A stretch of DNA of 64,000 bases, from NCBI RefSeq assembly GCF_004786035.1, contig NZ_CP035088.1:2268001-2332000 (forward strand). The letters are read 5' to 3'. The translations under genes and the position numbers were made by a program. Origin of the DNA: Pseudomonas viciae (GTDB lineage Bacteria; Pseudomonadota; Gammaproteobacteria; Pseudomonadales; Pseudomonadaceae). The stretch's first letter is position 1. Each line of letters begins with the position of its first letter. Below, in pieces: positions 1,848-45,142 of this stretch. The notes under the pieces are model-generated. The model saw only the letters and a list, made by a program, of their open reading frames with translations, was not told where the DNA came from and did not search any database.

Positions 1848-2369
1848 ATGCCCGCCAACGATCTGTCCTTACGCAGTGCTGTCGACGTTCTGTACAGTGA
1901 TCATCACAGTTGGCTCCAGGGCTGGCTGCGCAAGCGCTTGGGCAACACCTTCGATGCCGCGGACCTGACCCAGGATACTTTTGTGCGCGTCATCAAGGCG
2001 CGCTCCGCATTGGATATTCGTGAGCCGAGACCCTATCTGTCGATGATCGCCAAGGGGCTGTTGATCGATTTGTTTCGCCGCCGCTCGCTGGAACAATCCT
2101 ATCTCGAAGCCTTGGCCGCGATGCCGCAAGAGCAGCACCCGTCGCTGGAAGAACAGGCCATCCTGCTCCAGGCCCTGATGGAGATCGACCGCTTGCTGCT
2201 GGGGCTGGGGCCGCGAGTCAGGCAGGCGTTCATCCTGTCGCAGTTCGATGGCCTGACCTACCCGCAAATTGCCGAGCGCCTGGGCGTCAGCGTTCGTACG
2301 GTCAATAACCACATGGCCAAGGCCATGGAACGTTGCTGCCTGATGCAGATTCAATTGCAGCTTTCATGA
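1848..2369 (+). CDS. FecI-family ECF sigma factor
   Basis: 173-residue extracytoplasmic-function sigma factor. Region 2 lies at about residues 14-85 (DAADLTQDTFVRVIKAR), with the core-binding and -10 recognition helices. Region 4 lies at about 105-165 and contains a clear helix-turn-helix (GLTYPQIAERLGVSVRTVNNHM). There is no extra domain. The gene overlaps the downstream anti-sigma gene by four bases (ATGA), and a TonB receptor follows. This is the standard order of iron cell-surface signalling systems, in which the sigma factor directs transcription of the receptor gene. The ribosome site is weak; the ATG was chosen because region 2 begins soon after it. A Fur box lies just upstream. Confidence 0.93.
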   Translation: MPANDLSLRSAVDVLYSDHHSWLQGWLRKRLGNTFDAADLTQDTFVRVIKARSALDIREPRPYLSMIAKGLLIDLFRRRSLEQSYLEALAAMPQEQHPSLEEQAILLQALMEIDRLLLGLGPRVRQAFILSQFDGLTYPQIAERLGVSVRTVNNHMAKAMERCCLMQIQLQLS

Positions 2370-3325
2370 ACCTGCCAGCCGAAGAGTTGCAAGCCATCCG
2401 TGCCGCGGCGCAGTGGTACGCCCGGCTTCATTCCGGCATTACGACCGACGCGGATCGGGCCGGGTGGAATGCCTGGCTGACTGCAAGCCCGTTGCATAGC
2501 CAGGCCTGGCAAAGAATCACGGCGGTGGCCGAACAGATGGCGAGTGTGCCGGGCGCCCTGGCGGCACCGATCTTGAGCGAACGCCACAATCGATCCCGTC
2601 GCCAGGTATTGCGCAGCGCCTTGTTGCTGACGTCCGCCAGCGGCCTGGGTTGGTTGGGCTGGCGCAGCCAGGCTACACAGAACCTGCTTTGCGATTACCG
2701 CACCGCAGTGGGCGAGCGCCGCGAGTTTCAGCTGGCGGACGGCAGCACTGTGCTGCTCAACACCGACACCTCGGTCAACGTTCGTTTCGATGGGCGCCAG
2801 CGGCTACTGGAGCTGTTGTGGGGGGAGATCATCGTGACGACGGCGGTCGATCCCTTGCAGCGGCCGTTCAAGGTCATCACCGGTCATGTCGAGGTACTTG
2901 CGCTGGGCACGCGGTTTATCGTTCGTGGCCAGGCGCGGGGCGGCGAAGTGGCGGTGCTTGAGAAAGCGGTCGAGGTGAGCCTGCCGGCGATTGGCTCGAG
3001 GATGCGGGTCGAAGCCGGCCAGCGCCTGGATTTCAATGATCGGTCGCTGGGTACGCTGCGCGGCAACGATGTGTCGGTCGGTGCCTGGCAGAAGGGCAGC
3101 ATCATCGCCATTGACCGTCCTCTGGCGGCGCTGCTGGATGAACTCTCGCGTTACCGCAACGGCGTGCTGCGTTGTGATCCGGCCATTGCCGACTTGAAGG
3201 TTTCCGGCGTGTTTCCCGTCGACAACACGGATCTCGCCCTGGCGGCGCTGGAGAGTGGTTTTTCGTTGCGCGTGACCCGCTACAGCCGATTCTGGGTCCG
3301 GGTATCGAGCAGCGATCAGCGCTGA
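2366..3325 (+). CDS. FecR-family anti-sigma regulator
   Basis: 319-residue inner-membrane regulator that holds the FecI-like sigma factor and transmits the signal from the ligand-bound receptor. The cytoplasmic N-terminal DUF4880 part (DRAGWNAWLTASPLHSQAW) comes first. A single membrane segment at about residues 81-100 follows an arginine-rich stretch. The periplasmic FecR domain (about 110-215) and a C-terminal DUF4974-like STN-contact region complete it. The ATG at 2366 overlaps the sigma-factor stop; an upstream in-frame TTG-type start would overlap more and is less likely. The length is normal for the family. Confidence 0.92.
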   Translation: MNLPAEELQAIRAAAQWYARLHSGITTDADRAGWNAWLTASPLHSQAWQRITAVAEQMASVPGALAAPILSERHNRSRRQVLRSALLLTSASGLGWLGWRSQATQNLLCDYRTAVGERREFQLADGSTVLLNTDTSVNVRFDGRQRLLELLWGEIIVTTAVDPLQRPFKVITGHVEVLALGTRFIVRGQARGGEVAVLEKAVEVSLPAIGSRMRVEAGQRLDFNDRSLGTLRGNDVSVGAWQKGSIIAIDRPLAALLDELSRYRNGVLRCDPAIADLKVSGVFPVDNTDLALAALESGFSLRVTRYSRFWVRVSSSDQR

Positions 3326-3420
3326 GACGCACATAAAAAATTCTTGTCCTGCACTTTTTATCCCCATCGTTCGGCTCTTCCTCAGTGAGTTTTTATCGAC
3401 CGTTTTTGGGGAGGGGAAGC

Positions 3421-5898
3421 ATGTCTTGGGTGAGCGTGCCAGGTCATCTGGTGTCTGCAGTGAAAATCGGCTTGTTGGTCGTCACGACCGCCAGCGTCGG
3501 GGTTGTGAATGCCAGCCCGGTTCCAGTGGACTCGGCGCAGCAGCGTTCGGCGCAGGCTTACGATATCGGGGCCGGTAGCCTGGTGGATGTCCTGACCCGG
3601 TTCTCCAGCACCGCCGGTGTCGCCATTTCGTTTGATGCCCGGCAACTCCAGGGTCTGCAATCGCCCGGCCTGAGAGGTTCGTTCGGCGTGAGTGATGGGT
3701 TTGCCCGTATTCTTGGCGGTAGCGGCCTGCAAGCCGACCTCCAGGCCAACGGCACGTACGTGCTGCGCCAACTGCCCGCCAATGGTTCGATCATGGAGCT
3801 GGGAGCAACCACCATCGAAGGGCAGATGCTCGGAGCGACCACCGAGAACAGTGGCTCCTACACGACGGGGGCGGTCACGATCGGCAAAGGCGAGCATTCT
3901 CTGCGTGAGACGCCGCAATCGGTGACGGTGATCACCCGCAAAATGCTCGATGACCAGAACCTGAACACCATCGATCAAGTGATGGAAAAGACGCCCGGTA
4001 TTACCGTCTACGACTCGACCATGGGCGGCAAGTATTTCTATTCCCGTGGGTTCCGGATGTCCGGTCAGTATCAATATGACGGGGTTCCGCTGGACATGGG
4101 CAACAGCTATGTCCAGGCCGACAGTTTCAGCAGTGACATGGCGTATTACGACCGGGTCGAAGTCCTGCGCGGTGCCGCCGGGATGATGAAGGGGGCGGGC
4201 GGTACCTCTGGCGGCGTCAATTTCGTCCGTAAACGCGGCCAGGCCACGGCGCAGACAGAACTCAGCCTGTCCGGTGGCACCTGGGACAACTACCGTGGGC
4301 AGGTCGATACCGGTGGCCCGCTGAATGATTCCGGTACCGTGCGGGGCAGGGCGGTGATCGCCGAGCAGAGCCGGCATTATTTCTACGACGATGCCCGGCG
4401 CAAGGACCAGATTTATTACGGCGCCCTGGACTTCGACCTGACGCCCGACACCACCCTCGGCCTGGGCCTGGCCTATGAAGACGTCGATGCGAGCCCTTGC
4501 TGGGGCGGGCAGCCGCGCTATAGGGATGGCAGCGATTTGAAACTCAGTCGCTCCACTTGCCTGGATCCGTCGTGGAACACCTGGCGTAGCCAGCGGACCA
4601 CGGTGTTCAGCGATCTCAAGCATCAGCTCAATGACGACTGGGCCGTGAAGGTGGCCGGTGTCTATACGAAAAACACCCAGGACATCAAATACGCCTTTGC
4701 ATCCGGCTCGGTGACGCCGGGCGTCTCGACCACCAACGTGCTGGGCAGCATGTACGACTATGACCAGATCGATTACGGCCTCGACGCCTACTTGGACGGC
4801 AAGTTCGACGCCTTCGGGCAGCAGCATGAATTGATCGTCGGCTTCAACGCCAGCCGTTCGGACAAGGATGATTTTTTCTCGGTCGCCTTCCTGCCGCAGC
4901 AACAGAACGTATTCGATCCGGATCGACACATTCCGGAACCGGACGACAGTTACTTCATCGAGAACTCGACGCGCGGTGGCCCGGTTAAAACCGTCACCCG
5001 GCAACAAGGCCTGTATTCGACCCTGCGCCTGAAACTGGCGGACCCATTGACCTTTGTCGTGGGCAGCCGGGTGAGCTGGTACAACTCCAAGACCGACTCG
5101 GTGTTCCTCACCGGTGGCTCGGAGCACGCCAAGAGCACGGAGACGGGCCAGGTCACCCCGTTTGCCGCCGTGTTGCTGGACCTCAACGAACACCTGACGG
5201 CCTACGCCAGTTACTCGGACATTTTCACCCCCCAAGGCAACTACCGCTCCGAAAGCGGTTCGGCACTCAAGCCCCTGGTGGGTGAAAGCTATGAGCTGGG
5301 GATCAAGGGCGAATGGTTCGAGGGCCGTCTGAACAGCGCCTTCAACCTGTTCCGCACGCTGCAGAAAGACCAGGCCCAGACCGACTACATCTCAAGCTGT
5401 TCGTCCTCGGACGGTTTTTGCTATGAGAACGCCGGCAAGGTGCGCGCCCAGGGCTTCGAAGCCGAGATCAGCGGTGAAGTCATCGAGCGCCTGCAGTTGC
5501 TTGCCGGCTACACCTACACCCAGACCAAGACCCTGGATGACATTGACACCAGCCTCAACGGCGGCTCGTTCAACAGCTATGTGCCGCGTCATGTGCTGCG
5601 CCTGTGGGGCGATTACGCCCTGGGTGGGGCGTTCGAACGGTTCAGCGTCGGTGCCGGGGTCAACGCCCAAAGCGACAATTTCCGGGTATCGCCGGCGACG
5701 GGCGAGAAGATCACCCAGGCTGGTTATGCCGTGTGGAACGGGCGTGTCGGCTACCGCATTGATGACACCTGGTCGTTGGCCCTCAATGGCAACAACCTGT
5801 TCGACAAGCGCTACTACAGCACCATCGGGACCGAGAACTTCGGTAACTATTACGGTGAACCGCGCAACTTCACCATGACCATGAAGGCGCGCTTCTGA
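3421..5898 (+). CDS. TonB-dependent siderophore receptor with signalling (STN) domain
   Basis: 825-residue outer-membrane transducer. A signal peptide (cleavage near residue 31, after VVNA) is followed by the STN signalling domain (about 45-125), the plug (about 150-275, with ETPQSVTVITRKMLDDQ and RGFRMSGQYQYDGVPL) and a 22-strand barrel ending in aromatic MTMKARF. The STN domain and the FecI/FecR pair upstream show that it both imports a ferric siderophore and induces its own operon. The ATG at 3421 has a strong GGGGAGGGG ribosome site; a GTG 36 bases upstream lacks one. The plug resembles FpvA/FoxA-type siderophore receptors, but the ligand cannot be deduced. Confidence 0.93.
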   Translation: MSWVSVPGHLVSAVKIGLLVVTTASVGVVNASPVPVDSAQQRSAQAYDIGAGSLVDVLTRFSSTAGVAISFDARQLQGLQSPGLRGSFGVSDGFARILGGSGLQADLQANGTYVLRQLPANGSIMELGATTIEGQMLGATTENSGSYTTGAVTIGKGEHSLRETPQSVTVITRKMLDDQNLNTIDQVMEKTPGITVYDSTMGGKYFYSRGFRMSGQYQYDGVPLDMGNSYVQADSFSSDMAYYDRVEVLRGAAGMMKGAGGTSGGVNFVRKRGQATAQTELSLSGGTWDNYRGQVDTGGPLNDSGTVRGRAVIAEQSRHYFYDDARRKDQIYYGALDFDLTPDTTLGLGLAYEDVDASPCWGGQPRYRDGSDLKLSRSTCLDPSWNTWRSQRTTVFSDLKHQLNDDWAVKVAGVYTKNTQDIKYAFASGSVTPGVSTTNVLGSMYDYDQIDYGLDAYLDGKFDAFGQQHELIVGFNASRSDKDDFFSVAFLPQQQNVFDPDRHIPEPDDSYFIENSTRGGPVKTVTRQQGLYSTLRLKLADPLTFVVGSRVSWYNSKTDSVFLTGGSEHAKSTETGQVTPFAAVLLDLNEHLTAYASYSDIFTPQGNYRSESGSALKPLVGESYELGIKGEWFEGRLNSAFNLFRTLQKDQAQTDYISSCSSSDGFCYENAGKVRAQGFEAEISGEVIERLQLLAGYTYTQTKTLDDIDTSLNGGSFNSYVPRHVLRLWGDYALGGAFERFSVGAGVNAQSDNFRVSPATGEKITQAGYAVWNGRVGYRIDDTWSLALNGNNLFDKRYYSTIGTENFGNYYGEPRNFTMTMKARF

Positions 5899-37499: not shown

Positions 37500-37612
37500 G
37501 GCGCTTCCCTCTGTTCTTGTTCAGTGGGTGATTCGAGCGCAATGAAACCCCGGGCGCAAGCCCGCCAAGGTTCGAACAGCGCCCGCCCACCGCGGGTTTG
37601 TTGATGCTTGAG

Positions 37613-37808
37613 TCATGGGCCGGTCTCCGGGCTTGCGAGGGGCCGGGCTTGTGCCTGGCCTGCAAGCGTCACCTTCCCATGTCGACAGACACAGTGGTTC
37701 AGACGCTTCGCTCGCTTACCGTTGCGGGGGCAGCACCGGACTGACGTGGCCTTGAAGTAAAGCACACGATTCACCGGTTTCCCGTTTCACCCTGTGAAGG
37801 GCACCCGT
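37613..37808 (-). ncRNA. Cobalamin riboswitch upstream of cbtB
   Basis: In minus-strand sense, the core reads GGTGCTGCCCCCGCAACGG, then CACTG..., then GGGAAGGTGACGCTTGCA, ending in the B12 box GCCCGGAGACCGGCC. These are the conserved pieces of the AdoCbl class. It lies in the 5' leader of cbtB-cbtA-cobE-cobM, so it should switch the operon off when B12 is plentiful. Confidence 0.92.
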
Positions 37809-37888
37809 AACTAGGCGCACAGGAGAGCATGGGCGAGGGCGGGGCGTCAATTGGCATGGGGTTTCAGGCTGGCACCGAGTCGCGCCCA

Positions 37889-37981: not shown

Positions 37982-38055
37982 ACGGTGGCAAGGCCACCAC
38001 AGAACTTACCTGCGGACATTGACCCGCCCCCACACCCTGCGTAGCCTTGCGCCTT

Positions 38056-38246
38056 CGAGGTTCTTCGGCACGTGTCGAAGCTAAGAAGGGAACGCGGTCC
38101 AAGCCGCGGCTGCCCCCGCAACTGTGAACGGTGCTGTTTCTGCAAGGCCACTGTGCATGCCCTTTTTCACCGGGCGCACGGGAAGGCGCAGTCATTGCCA
38201 GTCGAATGACTGGCCCACCGTCAGCCAGGAGACCTGCCTCGAGACA
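38056..38246 (+). ncRNA. Cobalamin riboswitch upstream of cobW
   Basis: GAGGTTCTTCGGCACG, AAGAAGGGAACGCGGT, GCGGCTGCCCCCGCAACTGT, CACTGTGCAT, ACGGGAAGGCGCAGTC and the box AGCCAGGAGACCTGCC occur in the normal order of the AdoCbl riboswitch. The box ends about 107 bases before the cobW ATG. It should control cobW, cobN and the chelatase gene. Confidence 0.95.
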
Positions 38247-38352
38247 GATTCTCACTACAACCGGGCGGGGTGATCCGGTGGCGAAATCTTCCGCGCATGC
38301 CTTGCCTGCGGTTGTCGTCCCGTTTGCCCGCCACTTTGCCAAGGGGCATCGG

Positions 38353-39417
38353 ATGAAAACACTGGCCAAACTTCCCGTCACCATCGTCACCGGTTTCCTC
38401 GGCTCGGGTAAAACCACCTTGCTGCGGCACATGCTCGACAACGCCCAGGGCCGCCGCATCGCGGTGATCGTCAACGAGTTCGGCGAGCTGGGCATCGACG
38501 GCGAGATCCTCAAGCAGTGCTCCATCGGTTGCACCGAAGAAGAAGCCAACGGCCGCGTCTACGAACTGGCCAACGGTTGCCTGTGCTGCACGGTGCAGGA
38601 AGAGTTCTTCCCGGTGATGCGCGAGCTGGTGGCCCGACGTGGCGACCTCGACCACATCCTCATCGAAACCTCCGGCCTGGCCTTGCCCAAGCCGCTGGTC
38701 CAGGCCTTCCAATGGCCGGAAATCCGCAGCGCATGCACTGTCGATGCGGTGATTACCGTGGTCGACAGCCCAGCCGTGGCCGCCGGCACCTTCGCTGCCT
38801 TCCCTGACCAGGTCGATGCCCAGCGCAAACTCGACCCGAACCTGGACCACGAATCACCGCTGCACGAGCTGTTCGCCGATCAACTGGCCAGCGCCGACCT
38901 GGTGATCCTCAACAAAGCCGACCTGATCAGCCCGGAAGACCTGGCGAAAGTGCGCCTGGAAGTGGCCGAAGAGTTGCCGCCGGCGGTCAAGGTCATCGAA
39001 GCCAGCAGCGGTCGCCTGCCACTGGAGGTGTTGATCGGCCTGGGCGCTGGCTCCGAAGAACACATCGACGGCCGCCACAGTCATCACGATCATCACCATG
39101 ACGGTGATGAAGACGACCACGATCACGACGCTTTCGATTCGATTTCCATCGAGTTGCCCCAGGCCGACGAGAGCCTGCTGCTGGACGCGCTGACGCAATT
39201 GGTGGTCCAGCACGGCGTGCTGCGGGTCAAGGGTTTCGCGGCGATCCCGAACAAGCCGATGCGCCTGCTGATCCAGGGTGTTGGCACGCGTTTCGACAAG
39301 CATTTCGACCGCCAGTGGGGCGCCGATGAAGCGCGGGTTACCCGTCTGGTGCTGATCGGCCAGGCGCTCGATGCCGGGCTGCTTGAAGCGCAGTTGCGCG
39401 CCGCCCTCAGCGCCTAA
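38353..39417 (+). CDS. cobW: CobW, GTPase metallochaperone
   Basis: 354-residue G3E GTPase. The Walker A motif GFLGSGKT lies at residues 14-21, the metal-binding CxCC at Cys76-Cys78-Cys79 in GCLCCT, and the guanine-specificity NKAD at 187-190. A His/Asp-rich insertion at about 237-259 (HIDGRHSHHDHHHD) probably binds cobalt. It is thought to load cobalt for the CobN chelatase. The ATG at 38353 follows GG-rich bases and is preceded by the riboswitch. Confidence 0.95.
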   Translation: MKTLAKLPVTIVTGFLGSGKTTLLRHMLDNAQGRRIAVIVNEFGELGIDGEILKQCSIGCTEEEANGRVYELANGCLCCTVQEEFFPVMRELVARRGDLDHILIETSGLALPKPLVQAFQWPEIRSACTVDAVITVVDSPAVAAGTFAAFPDQVDAQRKLDPNLDHESPLHELFADQLASADLVILNKADLISPEDLAKVRLEVAEELPPAVKVIEASSGRLPLEVLIGLGAGSEEHIDGRHSHHDHHHDGDEDDHDHDAFDSISIELPQADESLLLDALTQLVVQHGVLRVKGFAAIPNKPMRLLIQGVGTRFDKHFDRQWGADEARVTRLVLIGQALDAGLLEAQLRAALSA

Positions 39418-39420
39418 GCC

Positions 39421-42400
39421 ATGCACCTGCTCAGGACCCAGCCCGGCGGCTTTGTGTCGGATGACAACATTGCCGACCTGGGACAAACCCCCGCCGAACT
39501 GGTGATCCTGTGCAGCGGCGACTCCAGCCTGGCGCTGCTGGCCGAAGCCGCAAAGCAGTTGCCAGACGACTATCCGGAATTTCGCCTGGCCAACCCGATG
39601 CAGGTGCAAAACCACGCTTCGGTGGATCTGTACTTCGAAGACGTGCTGCGGCACGCCAAGGTCATCCTGTTGTCGCTGCACGGTGGCATTGGCTATTGGC
39701 GCTACGGCATCGAGCGCCTGATGGAGCTGGCCGGGCGCGGGGTGAAGCTGATCCTGGTGCCGGGGGACGATCGTCCGGACCCGGAGCTCAGCGACTTGAG
39801 CAACGTGCCTTTAGAGGGCCGCGACCGGCTCTGGCAGTTCTTGCGCCAGGGCGGGCTGGGCAATGCCCTGGACTTGTTTCACAACTTGGGCAGCCAATGG
39901 TTCGGCCGCGATTATCCCTGGCGTGAGCCGCAAACTCTGCCGCGCACGGCGATCTACCACCCTCGAAAAACCAGCGCCAGCCTCGGCGATTGGCAAGCCG
40001 ACTGGCAGGCCGATCGACCGGTGGCGGCGGTGCTGTTCTATCGCTCCCACCTGCAAGCGGCGAACACCGCGTTCATCGACGTGTTCTGCCAGCGCCTGCA
40101 AGTGGCGGGGCTCAATCCACTGCCGATTGCCGTGGCCAGCCTCAAGGAGCCCGGTTGCCTGGCATGGGTGGAAGATTGGTTGGATGAGGTCGAAGCCGGG
40201 GTGATCCTCAATACCACCGGTTTCGCCCAATCCAGCCCCGAAGCGCCGCATCTGCGACCGTTTCGTCGCAACATCCCGGTGATCCAGGCGATCTGCGCCC
40301 AGGACAACGAACCCGGCTGGCGCGCCAGCGAGCAGGGCCTGGGCCCGCGGGACCTGGCGATGCACATTGCCTTGCCGGAACTGGACGGGCGGATCATCAG
40401 CCGGCCCATCAGTTTCAAGGACCTGGCCTGGCGCAGCGAGCGCAGCCAGAGCGATGTGGTCTGTTACCGGGCCGTGCCCGAACGCATGGATTTTGTCGCC
40501 GAACTGGCCCGGCGCTGGACCACCCTGGCGCGCCTGCCCAACGCCGAAAAGCGCGTGGCGCTGATCCTCGCCAACTACCCGACCCGGGACGGGCGAATCG
40601 GCAATGGGGTCGGCCTGGACACCCCGGCGGCGGCGCTGAATATCCTGCGGGCCATGCAGGCCGAGGGTTATCCGCTGCCGGCCGAACTGCCTGAGAGCGG
40701 TACTGCGCTGATTCAGCAATTGCTCGGCGGGGTCAGCAACGACCTGGACAGCCTCGACGTGCGACCCTGTCACCAAAGCCTGGCCCTCGACGCTTACCAG
40801 GCCATGTTCGACGCATTGCCCGAGGCCAATCGCCAGGCAGTGCTGCAGCGTTGGGGCTCGCCCGAGAAAGACCCAATGTTCCGCGAAGGGCGCCTGATGG
40901 TCGCCGGCCTGCGCCTGGGCCTGACCTTCGTCGGTATCCAGCCGGCCCGTGGTTATCAAGTCGATCCGAGTGGGGTCTACCACGACCCGGACCTGGTGCC
41001 GCCCCACGGCTATCTGGCGTTTTATTTCTGGTTGCGCCACACCTACGGCGTCCACGGGGTGATCCACGTCGGCAAGCACGGCAACCTCGAATGGCTGCCG
41101 GGCAAGGGCGTCGGGCTCTCGGAGAATTGCTGGCCCGATGCGCTGCTGGGGCCGCTGCCGAATATCTATCCGTTCATCGTCAACGACCCTGGGGAGGGCG
41201 CCCAGGCCAAGCGTCGGACCCAGGCGGTGATCATCGACCACTTGATGCCACCGCTGACCCGGGCCGAAACCTACGGACCGCTGCGTAACCTAGAGTTGTT
41301 GGCCGACGAATATTACGAGGCGCAATTGCTCGACCCGCGCCGCGCCCGGGAACTGCAGCGGGACATTCTCAACCTGGTGCGCGAGACGCACATCGACCGC
41401 GAGTTGCAACTGGACGACGACGCTGACGCTGCAACTTGGCTGCCGCGGCTGGACACCTATCTGTGTGATTTGAAGGAGTCGCAGATTCGCGATGGCCTGC
41501 ACATTTTTGGCGAGTCGCCCAGCGGACGGCTGCGTATCGACACCTTGCTGGCGTTGCTGCGCATTCCCCGTGGCGATGGCAAGGGCGCGCAGTCGAGCCT
41601 GCTGCGGGCGCTGGCCAAGGCGTTCGGGCTGGGTTTCGATCCGCTGGATTGTGCCTTGGCCGAGCCTTGGACTGGCGACTGTCCCGAGGCGTTGCGCCGG
41701 ACCAGCGCCGAACCTTGGCGAACCGCTGGCGATACCCGCGAGCGCCTGGAGTTGTTTGCTGCGCAGTTGATCGAGCAAGCGCTAAACGGTGAAGTGCCGC
41801 AACTCGACGCACCGGGCTGGGAGGTGGTGAGCAGCATCATCGCGAGCCTGCGCGGCGTCGTGGCCCCGCGCCTGGACGCCTGCGGCCCGGCGGAAATGCG
41901 CGGCTTGCTCGATGCCTTGAGCGGGCGCTTCGTGCCGGCCGGCCCCAGCGGCGCGCCGAGTCGAGGACGCCTGGATGTGTTGCCCACCGGGCGCAATTTC
42001 TTCTCGGTGGATGTGCGCAACCTGCCGACCACCACGGCGTGGCGCATCGGTTTCCAGTCGGCGAACCTGATTCTTGAACGGCATTTGCAGGACCACGGCG
42101 ATCACCTGCGTCAGCTCGGCCTGTCGGTGTGGGGCACCGCGACCATGCGCACCGGTGGCGACGACATCGCCCAGGCCATGGCGCTGATGGGTGTGCGCCC
42201 GGTGTGGGCCACGGGCAGCCAGCGGGTCGATGATTTCGAGATTCTGCCCTTGAGCCTGCTGGACCGGCCTCGGGTCGATGTCACGCTGCGGGTCTCCGGG
42301 TTCTTCCGTGACGCCTTCGCCAACCTGATCCGCCTGTTCGATGCGGCGGTGCAGGCGGTTGCTGCCCTTGATGAGCCGGACGACATGAACCCCTTGGCGG

Positions 42401-43182
42401 CCAAGGTGCTTAGCGAGCGCGAAGCCTTGCTGGCGTCGGGCCTTGAGCCGGAGGTTGCGGCCCGACAGGCCGGCTGGCGGATCTTCGGCGCCAAACCCGG
42501 TGCCTATGGCGCCGGCGTGCAGGGCGCGATTGATGGTCGCTTGTGGCAGAGCCGCGAGGATTTGGCCGAGGTGTACCTGAACTGGGGCGGCTACGCTTAC
42601 GGCGCCAGCGATGAAGGCAGCGCCGCCCGCGATCAGTTCTCCCGGCGCTTGAGCCAGGTGCAAGCGGTGTTGCAGAACCAGGACAACCGCGAGCACGACC
42701 TGCTCGATTCCAACGATTACTACCAGTTTCAGGGCGGTATGCTGGCGGCGGTAGAGACCCTCAGCGGTGCGGCAGCGGCCAGTTACCATGGCGATCACAG
42801 CCAGCCGGATCTGCCGAAGATCCGCACCTTGAAAGAAGAGCTCAACCGCGTCATCCGTTCCCGCGCGGCGAATCCGAAGTGGATCGACGGGGTCAAGCGT
42901 CACGGCTATAAAGGCGCGTTCGAACTGGCGGCGACAGTGGACAACCTGTTCGCGTTCGACGCCACCACCCGGTTGATCGACGATCACCAATACGCTTTGC
43001 TGGCTGATGCGTACCTGCTCGACCCGGACACCCGGGATTTCGTCCGCCAGCACAACCCCGACGCCCTGCGGGACATGACCGAGCGCATGCTCGAAGCGCA
43101 GCAGCGCGGAATGTGGCAGGAGCCGGGCGAGTATCGCCAGGCCCTGGAGAATTTGTTGTTGGACATAGAAGAAGACAGCTGA
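39421..43182 (+). CDS. cobN: Cobaltochelatase large subunit CobN
   Basis: 1253-residue subunit that binds hydrogenobyrinate a,c-diamide and inserts Co2+ with ATP-driven help from the small and medium subunits. The CobN/BchH family is plain: VHGVIHVGKHGNLEWLPGKG, LPNIYPFIVNDPGEGAQAKRR and VDVTLRVSGFFRDAFANLIRLFD. It starts four bases after cobW. The two partner subunits are encoded by the next locus, through frameshifting. Confidence 0.97.
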   Translation: MHLLRTQPGGFVSDDNIADLGQTPAELVILCSGDSSLALLAEAAKQLPDDYPEFRLANPMQVQNHASVDLYFEDVLRHAKVILLSLHGGIGYWRYGIERLMELAGRGVKLILVPGDDRPDPELSDLSNVPLEGRDRLWQFLRQGGLGNALDLFHNLGSQWFGRDYPWREPQTLPRTAIYHPRKTSASLGDWQADWQADRPVAAVLFYRSHLQAANTAFIDVFCQRLQVAGLNPLPIAVASLKEPGCLAWVEDWLDEVEAGVILNTTGFAQSSPEAPHLRPFRRNIPVIQAICAQDNEPGWRASEQGLGPRDLAMHIALPELDGRIISRPISFKDLAWRSERSQSDVVCYRAVPERMDFVAELARRWTTLARLPNAEKRVALILANYPTRDGRIGNGVGLDTPAAALNILRAMQAEGYPLPAELPESGTALIQQLLGGVSNDLDSLDVRPCHQSLALDAYQAMFDALPEANRQAVLQRWGSPEKDPMFREGRLMVAGLRLGLTFVGIQPARGYQVDPSGVYHDPDLVPPHGYLAFYFWLRHTYGVHGVIHVGKHGNLEWLPGKGVGLSENCWPDALLGPLPNIYPFIVNDPGEGAQAKRRTQAVIIDHLMPPLTRAETYGPLRNLELLADEYYEAQLLDPRRARELQRDILNLVRETHIDRELQLDDDADAATWLPRLDTYLCDLKESQIRDGLHIFGESPSGRLRIDTLLALLRIPRGDGKGAQSSLLRALAKAFGLGFDPLDCALAEPWTGDCPEALRRTSAEPWRTAGDTRERLELFAAQLIEQALNGEVPQLDAPGWEVVSSIIASLRGVVAPRLDACGPAEMRGLLDALSGRFVPAGPSGAPSRGRLDVLPTGRNFFSVDVRNLPTTTAWRIGFQSANLILERHLQDHGDHLRQLGLSVWGTATMRTGGDDIAQAMALMGVRPVWATGSQRVDDFEILPLSLLDRPRVDVTLRVSGFFRDAFANLIRLFDAAVQAVAALDEPDDMNPLAAKVLSEREALLASGLEPEVAARQAGWRIFGAKPGAYGAGVQGAIDGRLWQSREDLAEVYLNWGGYAYGASDEGSAARDQFSRRLSQVQAVLQNQDNREHDLLDSNDYYQFQGGMLAAVETLSGAAAASYHGDHSQPDLPKIRTLKEELNRVIRSRAANPKWIDGVKRHGYKGAFELAATVDNLFAFDATTRLIDDHQYALLADAYLLDPDTRDFVRQHNPDALRDMTERMLEAQQRGMWQEPGEYRQALENLLLDIEEDS

Positions 43183-43205
43183 CATGAGGATGACAGACGC
43201 GCAGT

Positions 43206-43327
43206 TGTGGCGAGAGAGCTTGCTCCCGCTCGGCTGCGCAGCAGTCGTCATTCTGAAACAACACTGGGACCTCAGATTCTGGGGGCCGCTTCGCGCCCCA
43301 GCGGGAGCAAGCTCCCTCGCCACAGGG
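43206..43327. repeat. REPIN (paired inverted REP elements)
   Basis: TGTGGCGAGAGAGCTTGCTCCCGC and CAGCGGGAGCAAGCTCCCTCGCCACA flank about 75 bases, between cobN and the chelatase AAA gene. Confidence 0.85.
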
Positions 43328-43355
43328 AACCTCGCACATTTCATGAGACATCAAC

Positions 43356-44357
43356 ATGACCGACACCCCCCATTTCCCGCTCTCCGCCGTGGTCGGCGCC
43401 GATGACTTGAAACTCGCCCTGTGCCTGGCCGCCATCGATCCGAAAATCGGCGGCGTGCTGATCGAAGGTCCGCGGGGCATGGCCAAGTCCACGTTGGCCC
43501 GGGGCCTGGCGGATCTGCTGGCCAGTGGTCAGTTCGTCACCTTGCCCCTCGGTGCCACCGAAGAGCGGCTGGTGGGGACTCTCGATCTGGACGCAGCTTT
43601 GGGAGAAGGGCGTGCGCAGTTCTCCCCGGGCGTGCTGGCCAAGGCCGACGGCGGCGTGTTGTACGTCGATGAAGTGAACCTGCTGCCCGATCATCTGGTG
43701 GACCTGCTGCTCGATGTGGCCGCCAGCGGCACCAACCTGATCGAGCGCGACGGCATTTCCCACCGGCACCCGGCGCGTTTTGTGTTGATCGGCACCATGA
43801 ACCCGGAAGAAGGCGAACTGCGTCCGCAGTTGCTTGACCGTTTCGGCCTGAACGTGGCCCTCGACGGTCACACCGCCCCCGCCGAGCGCGGGCAGATCAT
43901 TCGACGCCGGTTGGATTTCGACAATGACCCGGTGCGGTTCTGCGCAGAGTGGGAGATGGCCCAGCAGCAACTGCGCGAACGTTGCCAGGAGGCGCGCAAC
44001 CGCTTGGCCGCGATTGCCCTGGATGATGCGGCACTGGCGCAGATTACCGAACGCTGTTTTGCCGCCGGGGTCGATGGCTTGCGCGCCGATCTGGTCTGGC
44101 TAAGGGCAGCCCGGGCCCATGCCGCCTGGCGTGGGGCGCAGGCTATCGCCGCTGAAGACATCGATGCAGTCGCCGAGTTTGCCTTGCGTCACCGTCGACG
44201 TGGGCATTCGGCACCGACACCGTCCCAGGCGCCGCAAACACCTGCAAATGCAACGGCTCAGCCCAACGAAGGCCAGGGCCAGTGGGGTGATTTGCCGGCC
44301 CAGGCATTGCCCACGGGGGCCCGGCGTGAAGTGCCGAGCTGGCCAAAAAAGCCCTAG
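43356..44357 (+). CDS. chlI: Chelatase AAA+ small subunit (ChlI/BchI-like), zero-frame product
   Basis: 333-residue AAA+ ATPase. Walker A EGPRGMAKST lies at about residues 37-46 and Walker B VLYVDEVNLL at 101-110. GTMNPEEGELRPQLLDRFGL contains sensor 1 and the Arg finger. This product corresponds to the chelatase small subunit working with CobN. It ends at TAG (44355-44357), directly after an A AAA AAG heptamer. The C-terminus is low-complexity (PTPSQAPQTPANATAQPNEGQ), like the linker that joins AAA and VWA parts in ChlD. The same start also gives a longer product by frameshift. Confidence 0.93.
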   Translation: MTDTPHFPLSAVVGADDLKLALCLAAIDPKIGGVLIEGPRGMAKSTLARGLADLLASGQFVTLPLGATEERLVGTLDLDAALGEGRAQFSPGVLAKADGGVLYVDEVNLLPDHLVDLLLDVAASGTNLIERDGISHRHPARFVLIGTMNPEEGELRPQLLDRFGLNVALDGHTAPAERGQIIRRRLDFDNDPVRFCAEWEMAQQQLRERCQEARNRLAAIALDDAALAQITERCFAAGVDGLRADLVWLRAARAHAAWRGAQAIAAEDIDAVAEFALRHRRRGHSAPTPSQAPQTPANATAQPNEGQGQWGDLPAQALPTGARREVPSWPKKP

Positions 44358-44392
44358 GCATTCGCCCCCGTTCACCGGCGGGGGCGAATGCC
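44345..44392 (+). promoter_or_regulatory. -1 ribosomal frameshift signal joining the AAA and VWA frames
   Basis: The slippery heptamer A AAA AAG occupies 44345-44351, set in the zero frame as CCA AAA AAG CCC TAG. After a 5-base spacer comes a perfect 14-bp stem, GGCATTCGCCCCCG (44357-44370) with CGGGGGCGAATGCC (44379-44392), around an 8-base loop. The heptamer is the one used by E. coli dnaX. Slipping back one base enters the VWA frame and avoids the stop. No strong upstream Shine-Dalgarno stimulator is seen. Confidence 0.88.
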
Positions 44393-45013
44393 AGACCCCG
44401 TGCCGGACGACTCGACCAAGGCCGTCAGGGCCGGAGCAAAGCGGCGGTCAGCGGTGTGGTGAACTGGCCGGGCACGTTACTCAATGGCCGTCCGCGCCTG
44501 CATGAAGACCTGCGTTTTCACGGTCGCCACCGCTCGTCCCATGAGCTGTGGCTGGTCATCGTCGATGCCTCGGCCTCGACCCGTCGGCATCGAGCCCTCT
44601 GCGATGGCAAAGGCCTGCTGGCGCAATTGTTCGATGACGCCTACCGACAACGCGCTCGGGTGGCACTGCTGACGGCCAGCGGCACGGTGCCGAACTGGCA
44701 GGTGCAGGGGCTCAAGGCCTCGGCCGGCCTGCGGGACTGGCTCGATGGGCTGGGCGCCGGTGGTGGTACGCCGTTGCTGGCGGCGCTGAGCGAGGCCGGA
44801 CGCTGGCTGTCGGCCCGGCGCAAGCGTTTCCCAGCGGAGCAGCAGCGGGTGTTGCTGATGACCGATGGACGAGTGAAAGAAGGGCTGGCACTGCCCTCCA
44901 TGGATTGCCCGTGCCTGTTGATCGACATCGAGCGCGGCCCGATTCGCCTGGGCCGGGCCCGGCAGTTGGCGGGGCAGTTGGGGGCTGAGTATCGGCATAT
45001 TGATGAGGTGTGA
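44351..45013 (+). CDS. chlD: VWA domain of the chelatase medium subunit (ChlD-like), made by -1 frameshift
   Basis: A reading frame of 220 codons from the frameshift point, with a VWA fold. The MIDAS metal site DASAS is in LVIVDASASTRRHR, followed by GGGTPLLAALSEAGRWL and VLLMTDGRVKEG. The frame has no ATG near its start; the first usable codons are GTGs at 44456 and 44459, without a ribosome site. Joined at the heptamer, the product is 552 residues (332 + 220), with a Pro/Arg-rich linker, the layout of ChlD. An independently started VWA protein is possible but less likely. Confidence 0.88.
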   Translation, partial: ALGIRPRSPAGANARPRAGRLDQGRQGRSKAAVSGVVNWPGTLLNGRPRLHEDLRFHGRHRSSHELWLVIVDASASTRRHRALCDGKGLLAQLFDDAYRQRARVALLTASGTVPNWQVQGLKASAGLRDWLDGLGAGGGTPLLAALSEAGRWLSARRKRFPAEQQRVLLMTDGRVKEGLALPSMDCPCLLIDIERGPIRLGRARQLAGQLGAEYRHIDEV

Positions 45014-45042
45014 TGGGCTTGAGTGTGAGGTGCCTGGTCGGA

Positions 45043-45142
45043 CGCCTTCGCGAGCAAGCCCGCTCCCACACGGGTTCTGCGGTGTTCAAGCATTATCTGT
45101 TCACAACGATCAGATGTGGGAGCGGGCTTGCTCGCGAAGGCA
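45043..45142. repeat. REPIN (paired inverted REP elements)
   Basis: GCCTTCGCGAGCAAGCCCGCTCCCACA and its complement flank about 45 bases, between the chelatase and phospholipase-like genes. Confidence 0.85.

Follow-up and report, generated by a model that had tools for sequence, protein, structure and literature searches.

A predicted programmed -1 frameshift site in a chlD-like chelatase gene of Pseudomonas viciae and its conservation in related bacteria

Frameshifting in chlD-like chelatase genes (fs-chlD) has been described before, and the element of Pseudomonas is already known, having been in print since 2013-2016. The screen of Antonov (2013) grouped 23 genes with -1 shifts into one cluster, Pseudomonas included. 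Three cassettes of this family, with A-runs of 11, 9 and 7, gave 63, 40 and 10% frameshifting in E. coli reporters; judged by these A-runs, none of them has the combination of A_AAA_AAG and a GC-rich stem that is found in P. viciae (PMC3711429). For the magnesium chelatase of Pseudomonas, the review of Atkins (2016) reports an A_AAA_AAR site under purifying selection, suggests the formation of a triplex, and prints the stem of P. protegens, which reads GGCATCCGCCCCCG...GGGGGCGGATGCC (PMC5009743). Kuznetsov (2022) assigns P. aeruginosa to a group in which fs-chlD gives both subunits of the Co-chelatase (PMC9227772). Stimulators of frameshifting are stated to begin generally 5-8 nt downstream of the slippery site (PMC4066793).

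The gene studied here is located in a stretch of 64,000 nucleotides from P. viciae, which is named the window in the following. It agrees with the published fs-chlD of Pseudomonas in gene family, genus, direction of the shift and A_AAA_AAR site. Its stem nearly equals that of P. protegens, and the differences are restricted to the species or strain and to small changes in the stem. The interpretation of fs-chlD as a cobalt chelatase gene is likewise in print (PMC9227772). The initial annotation had stated that frameshifting chlD genes are described in the literature; this was right, and even the Pseudomonas element itself has been published. The heptamer is identical to that of E. coli dnaX (PMC5009743), and the stem begins within the usual distance of 5-8 nt (PMC4066793).

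In the classical CobNST system, CobS and CobT are encoded by two separate genes, and their presumed roles are the same as those of the two products considered here. Unlike CobNST, the genome of the window is without CobS (TIGR01650; best 23 bits, cut-off 558). The single-frame chlD genes of Neptuniibacter, Marinomonas, Psychromonas and their kin encode a homologous AAA-linker-VWA protein that resembles the fusion product of the window. In dnaX, the shift makes a short product, whereas in the chelatase gene it would make the long one. Moreover, dnaX possesses an upstream Shine-Dalgarno-like stimulator; in contrast, a simple scan for AGGA, GGAG or GAGG upstream of the heptamer gave matches in only 9 of 65 chelatase sequences and none in the window. 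What is added here to the published picture is that, in the sequences compared, the heptamer persists where the stem differs, that the purine tract underlying the proposed triplex is not general, and that 17 of 24 distinct single-frame relatives have CobN and no match to ChlI or CobS.

Junction and gene context in P. viciae

The zero frame of the gene (43356..44357, + strand) extends from ATG 43356 to the stop codon TAG at 44355-44357, ends with TGG CCA AAA AAG CCC TAG, and encodes 333 amino acids, i.e. an AAA+ module resembling the ChlI/BchI small subunit. The sequence AAAAAAG at 44345-44351 (+) forms the heptamer A_AAA_AAG in the correct phase for -1 slippage. It is followed by the 5-nt spacer CCCTA (44352..44356, +) and by a putative stimulatory hairpin (44357..44392, +), which reads GGCATTCGCCCCCG-TTCACCGG-CGGGGGCGAATGCC. 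The perfect stem consists of 14 Watson-Crick pairs enclosing an 8-nt loop, and with the G-U pairs next to the loop it extends to 16 consecutive pairs; the 55 nt after the heptamer fold at -34.6 kcal/mol. The -1 frame (44351..45013, +) comprises 220 codons plus stop and encodes a linker and a VWA domain. The conceptual -1 fusion product has a length of 552 amino acids. The heptamer, the 5-base spacer and the 14-bp stem that the initial annotation had placed at the AAA/VWA junction were thus found at 44345-44392, and translation of the zero frame and of the fusion reproduced its 333 and 552 residues.

Like other fs-chlD genes, this one consists of an AAA (ChlI-like) frame and a subsequent VWA (ChlD-like) frame at -1, with an A-rich slippery site and a downstream RNA structure at the junction, in phase and at a spacing within 5-8 nt. 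In addition, cobN is present and a separate chlI or cobS is absent according to PF01078, TIGR02442 and TIGR01650.

Chance occurrence of such a signal was assessed on both strands of the window. Among 160 heptamers of the type XXXYYYZ (Y = A or T), only the one at 44345-44351 is followed by a stem of at least 12 consecutive pairs that starts 3-10 nt downstream. Simulation of 40 sequences of window length by a first-order Markov model gave 0.175 heptamer-stem combinations per window, and the combination alone is therefore only mildly unusual. It is the position at the junction of two open reading frames and the conservation, rather than the pairing of heptamer and hairpin as such, that make the case. 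A second match of the RNA model in the genome was rejected; it corresponds only to the opposite strand of the same palindrome.

The gene directly upstream is cobN (39421..43182, +), which codes for the large subunit of the cobalt chelatase (TIGR02257, 1725 bits, cut-off 822). It is preceded by cobW (38353..39417, +; TIGR02475, 528 bits), for which ATG 38353 is the likely start although the listed reading frame begins at 38131. A cobalamin riboswitch (RF00174, 105.7 bits) is located at 38041..38255 (+) upstream of cobW-cobN-chlD, and a second one (98.7 bits) lies divergently at 37601-37823 (-). The gaps on both sides of the chelatase gene (43200-43330 and 45040-45140) contain long imperfect inverted repeats with motifs like GGGAGCAAGCTCCCTCGCCACA. 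Rfam gave for these repeats only miRNA matches below the gathering scores; in appearance, they resemble the REP-type elements of Pseudomonas. In three of five relatives scanned, sRNA P15 (RF00627, above gathering) is matched on the opposite strand, at a distance of about 170-360 nt before the chelatase gene (L059, 3713-3832; L063 and L064, 3645-3765; -).

Conservation of the heptamer and the hairpin

A protein scan of named genomes was used to collect related loci. From 580 relatives the best 80 were retained, and this set consequently leans to close kin. Among these 80, 64 possess A_AAA_AAG at the junction, three, all from Caballeronia, possess A_AAA_AAA, ten are single-frame genes, and three run off contig ends. 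One gene counted as single-frame, L092, runs into masked sequence (N) some 60 codons beyond the linker motif, which makes its type less sure. In L037 the stop codon adjoins the heptamer directly; the other 63 A_AAA_AAG loci have 3 nt in between. In every one of the 65 sequences with A_AAA_AAG (window included), the two lysine codons of the slippery site are AAA AAG; elsewhere in the AAA part of these genes, AAG is favoured (178 AAG versus 108 AAA).

In these 65 sequences, the distance from the heptamer to the longest consecutive stem is 5 nt (45 sequences), 6 nt (18) or 11 nt (two); in L078 and L083, the stem is not at the usual place. For 40 sequences the stem comprises 13-16 consecutive pairs, a length observed in 0-3 of about 150 control windows from the same gene. 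The longest stems of the remaining 25 sequences have only 6-11 pairs, a length attained by between 3 and 142 of these control windows. For these weaker stems it is therefore the position and not the length that is unusual. A lack of conservation in related strains, named at the outset as an observation that would speak against a frameshift, was not found: both elements are conserved, the heptamer being present in 64 of 80 loci, and 63 of 65 sequences have the stem at +5 or +6.

An alignment of 58 rows with equal hairpin length, 56 of them distinct, was used to analyse the stem. In this alignment 92.6% of the cells are paired, compared to 33-53% for slid structures. Shuffling of the columns indicated that 91.0% pairing results from column make-up alone; none of 500 shuffles was as high as 92.6%. 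Pair 39-64 occurs as C-G in 26, U-A in 18 and U-G in 12 rows and is never mismatched. Two-sided changes are seen at four of the 14 pairs in 21 cells, 18 of which belong to pair 39-64, and the count of further pair types was equalled by 39 of 500 shuffles. On the tree, pair 39-64 requires at least eight changes on the 5' side and three on the 3' side; the sign test for covariation had too few supported independent pairs to reach significance. As regards the compensatory changes that the initial annotation had proposed as a check, pair 39-64 is always paired, and the covariation of the stem is modest and concentrated in this one pair.

The triplex suggested for this element (PMC5009743) was rejected as a general feature. 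The 3' arm contains at most 5 or 6 consecutive purines in 44 of the 46 fluorescens-like rows and at most 3 in ten of 12 rows from the other clade, the clades having been assigned by hand from the tree. Due to these short runs, the purine tract behind the proposed triplex is not general.

The spread of the signal was determined by means of a covariance model in 298 genomes of Pseudomonadaceae with at least 95% completeness, a search whose filters lose some weak matches. Matches were obtained in 190 genomes; by row count these are 120 of 127 in the genus of the window and 70 of 171 in other genera, a split which assumes, in accordance with the sort order, that 88 misses all belong to other genera. 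CobN was then searched in 23 genomes, namely the seven misses of the genus, 13 other misses and three weak matches. Six of the seven genus misses have no CobN at E<=1e-50, and the seventh possesses A_AAA_AAG with a different stem. Among all 20 misses, CobN scored over the cut-off in three (G251, G047, G053), gave weaker matches in eight and none in nine. The junction was read in the six genomes over the CobN cut-off, i.e. in these three and in the weak signal matches G284, G045 and G075. All six contain A_AAA_AAG and a stop codon 3 nt later, and the downstream sequence is divergent; the heptamer is therefore the constant part of the signal and the stem varies. The 2016 review describes the stem as "not strongly conserved" (PMC5009743). 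In the distant relatives L119, L122, L124 and L127, the frameshift site carries A-runs of 9 or 10 and a weaker downstream structure; perhaps these genes make use of a different stimulator or of polymerase slippage.

The second frame and competing explanations

Both parts of the gene were compared with protein families. The 333-residue part scored 339.5 bits with TIGR02030, below the cut-off of 466.95, and matches the solved ChlI/BchI chains 6l8d and 1g8p with E-values of 3.4e-83 to 1.1e-80. The VWA part matches models of BchD/ChlD (TIGR02442, 71.7 bits; TIGR02031, 57.8 bits) and also BchD 2x31. For TIGR02442, a putative cobaltochelatase with fused AAA and VWA parts, the two frames scanned apart gave 410.2 and 71.7 bits (cut-off 779.45).

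Rates of substitution in the VWA frame were determined for 14 loci that span the distance range, the first 20 codons of the -1 part being excluded. The dN value was smaller than dS in all 14 comparisons with the window (for L016, 0.058 and 0.409, respectively). The effect is strong in the nearer loci, and dN nears dS in the two farthest ones, L083 and L087. Evolution is faster in the VWA part than in the AAA part: the dN of the former is 0.058 versus 0.042 for L016, and the difference is 2-3-fold in most of the farther loci. These values indicate that the VWA frame is under purifying selection.

The gene is very likely an fs-chlD gene, i.e. a chlD-like gene of the aerobic B12 pathway with a programmed -1 ribosomal frameshift site. 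Without slippage, ribosomes would terminate one codon past the slippery site and release the 333-residue AAA+ protein as the small (ChlI/CobS-type) subunit. Alternatively, with the help of the hairpin that begins 5 nt further on, the lysyl-tRNAs on AAA AAG would move back by one base within A_AAA_AAG and pair anew, and the slipped ribosome would continue into the VWA frame to make the 552-residue medium (ChlD/CobT-type) subunit. Both products would work together with CobN, which is encoded just upstream. One gene very probably yields two chelatase subunits, a short and a long one. We infer that slippage takes place in the P. viciae strain and that the two proteins belong to the same cobalt chelatase as subunits. 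The frameshift interpretation given in the initial annotation is supported by the anatomy of the site, its conservation, the selection on the second frame and the gene context.

It is very unlikely that two separate genes are present, with an AAA protein that stops at TAG and a VWA protein that starts independently or by re-initiation. In favour of this arrangement, GTG 44456 opens a reading frame of 185 residues that contains the VWA domain, and a TTG 125 nt past the heptamer is frequent in the relatives (29 of 64 sequences). However, in the VWA frame of the window, which has a stop at 44327, this GTG is the first of all ATG, GTG and TTG codons; it lies 104 nt past the heptamer, and the preceding 25 nt contain no Shine-Dalgarno-like sequence at the usual distance. 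The statement that the VWA frame is without ATG or ribosome site thus holds. Among 64 sequences (window included, L078 excluded), no start is common to all; only five have, in the VWA frame and within 150 nt, a start codon with a Shine-Dalgarno-like sequence, located at several places. Furthermore, a separate VWA gene leaves the heptamer and the stem at a fixed distance unexplained.

Even less probable is transcriptional slippage at the A-run, which would create a minor population of mRNA with fused frames. It is plausible at the A-runs of 9 or 10 in L119, L122, L124 and L127. The run of the window, as in 64 of the 80 named loci, consists of only six A followed by G; six A are probably too few for polymerase slippage, and this process needs no downstream stem at ribosomal spacing. 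The hairpin might also be a terminator, an attenuator or an sRNA instead of a stimulator, given that a strong GC-rich stem follows immediately after the stop codon and that Rfam weakly matched 44299-44392 to sRNA P17 (19.1 bits, gathering score 45). We regard this function as still more improbable: no U-run follows the stem, P17 is absent from five relatives scanned at E<=0.1, and the stem forms part of the coding sequence of the -1 frame. A mutation or a sequencing error that shifted the frame of a decaying gene, to which the faster evolution of the VWA part would fit, has a negligible probability: this junction recurs in 64 of the 80 named loci, the signal model matches 190 of 298 genomes of the family, and dN<dS holds in all 14 comparisons.

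Small subunit and single-frame relatives

In the genome of the window, PF01078, TIGR02442 and CobS TIGR01650 gave no credible score for any further ChlI- or CobS-like gene. PF01078 gave one strong match elsewhere (316.5 bits, an open frame of 661 residues), which we take to be a YifB/ComM-type protein, and weak AAA proteins with 20-24 bits; TIGR02442 found pieces of the chelatase gene and then matches of at most 50 bits.

For 40 of the 80 genomes, the complement of chelatase genes was determined. Each has exactly one ChlI-like place (E<=1e-20). CobS (E<=1e-10) was detected in eight, namely in three Caballeronia with frameshift, in four of the ten single-frame genomes, and, weakly (122.7 bits), in one Pseudomonas. 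CobN is present in 39; the exception is L088, a single-frame metagenome bin. Six of the ten single-frame genomes (L081, L084, L085, L086, L091, L093) contain CobN and no ChlI or CobS. The single frame of this first set has a length of about 548-632 residues from the start of the match.

A second set was drawn from the order of Neptuniibacter marinus, where 26 of 115 genomes gave a match, each at one place (E<=1e-40). Fifteen of the genes, including that of L084 again, are single-frame, nine have an A-rich heptamer and the VWA part at -1, and two are apparently separate genes. CobN over the cut-off was found in 14 of the 15 single-frame and eight of the nine frameshift genomes; CobS is strong in one and weak in another of the single-frame genomes and was not detected in the nine frameshift genomes. 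In both sets together, 17 of 24 distinct single-frame genomes have CobN without a ChlI or CobS match, and five have a strong CobS. Several of the single-frame genomes are drafts or metagenome bins, and absence in these is not proof. As single-frame relatives also lack a recognised small-subunit gene, its absence alone does not explain the frameshift. The absence of a separate small-subunit gene, which the initial annotation had noted for the locus, was also seen genome-wide with the three profiles; by itself, it is no evidence for a frameshift.

A tree of the AAA domain with 59 rows requires at least three changes of frame type, and one side of it contains frameshift and single-frame genes intermingled; this is a quick tree with several long branches. 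The three Caballeronia with a frameshift chlD beside cobN (L105, i.e. Caballeronia terrestris, 1891-4595; G010; G014) also carry CobS, which in L105 adjoins a VWA protein of CobT type as judged by eye. These genomes apparently possess two sets of small and medium subunits.

An inverted arrangement as in dnaX, where a shift leads to the short form, was considered for the single-frame genes and rejected; the few divergent genes have no common signal, and in neither set is a heptamer with an early -1 stop at the linker shared. Isolated heptamers of this kind near the linker are CCCTTTT in L081 and CCCAAAC in L085 and, in the second set, GGGTTTT in L116 and several in L128 and L130. In L110, L113 and L118, i.e. 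in three of 15 genes, GGGAAAG is followed by a -1 stop after 1-4 codons; in the close kin L113 and L118, this heptamer encodes a shared Gly-Lys motif. Some single-frame genes may contain a lineage-specific inverted shift signal.

In the single-frame relatives that have CobN and no recognised gene for ChlI or CobS, the undivided AAA-VWA protein may be enough on its own, so that a second product is not a strict necessity. A tentative and rather unlikely extension is that the frameshift is not a mere stand-in for a lost small-subunit gene and would set the ratio of short to long subunit or respond to a signal. If true, this would constitute a ratio-setting device within a riboswitch-controlled B12 operon. 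The locus is a clean and strongly conserved case of one bacterial gene, split by an ORF finder, that probably gives two enzyme subunits. The natural stem variants around an unchanged heptamer and the single-frame relatives offer material for studying the need for the short product.
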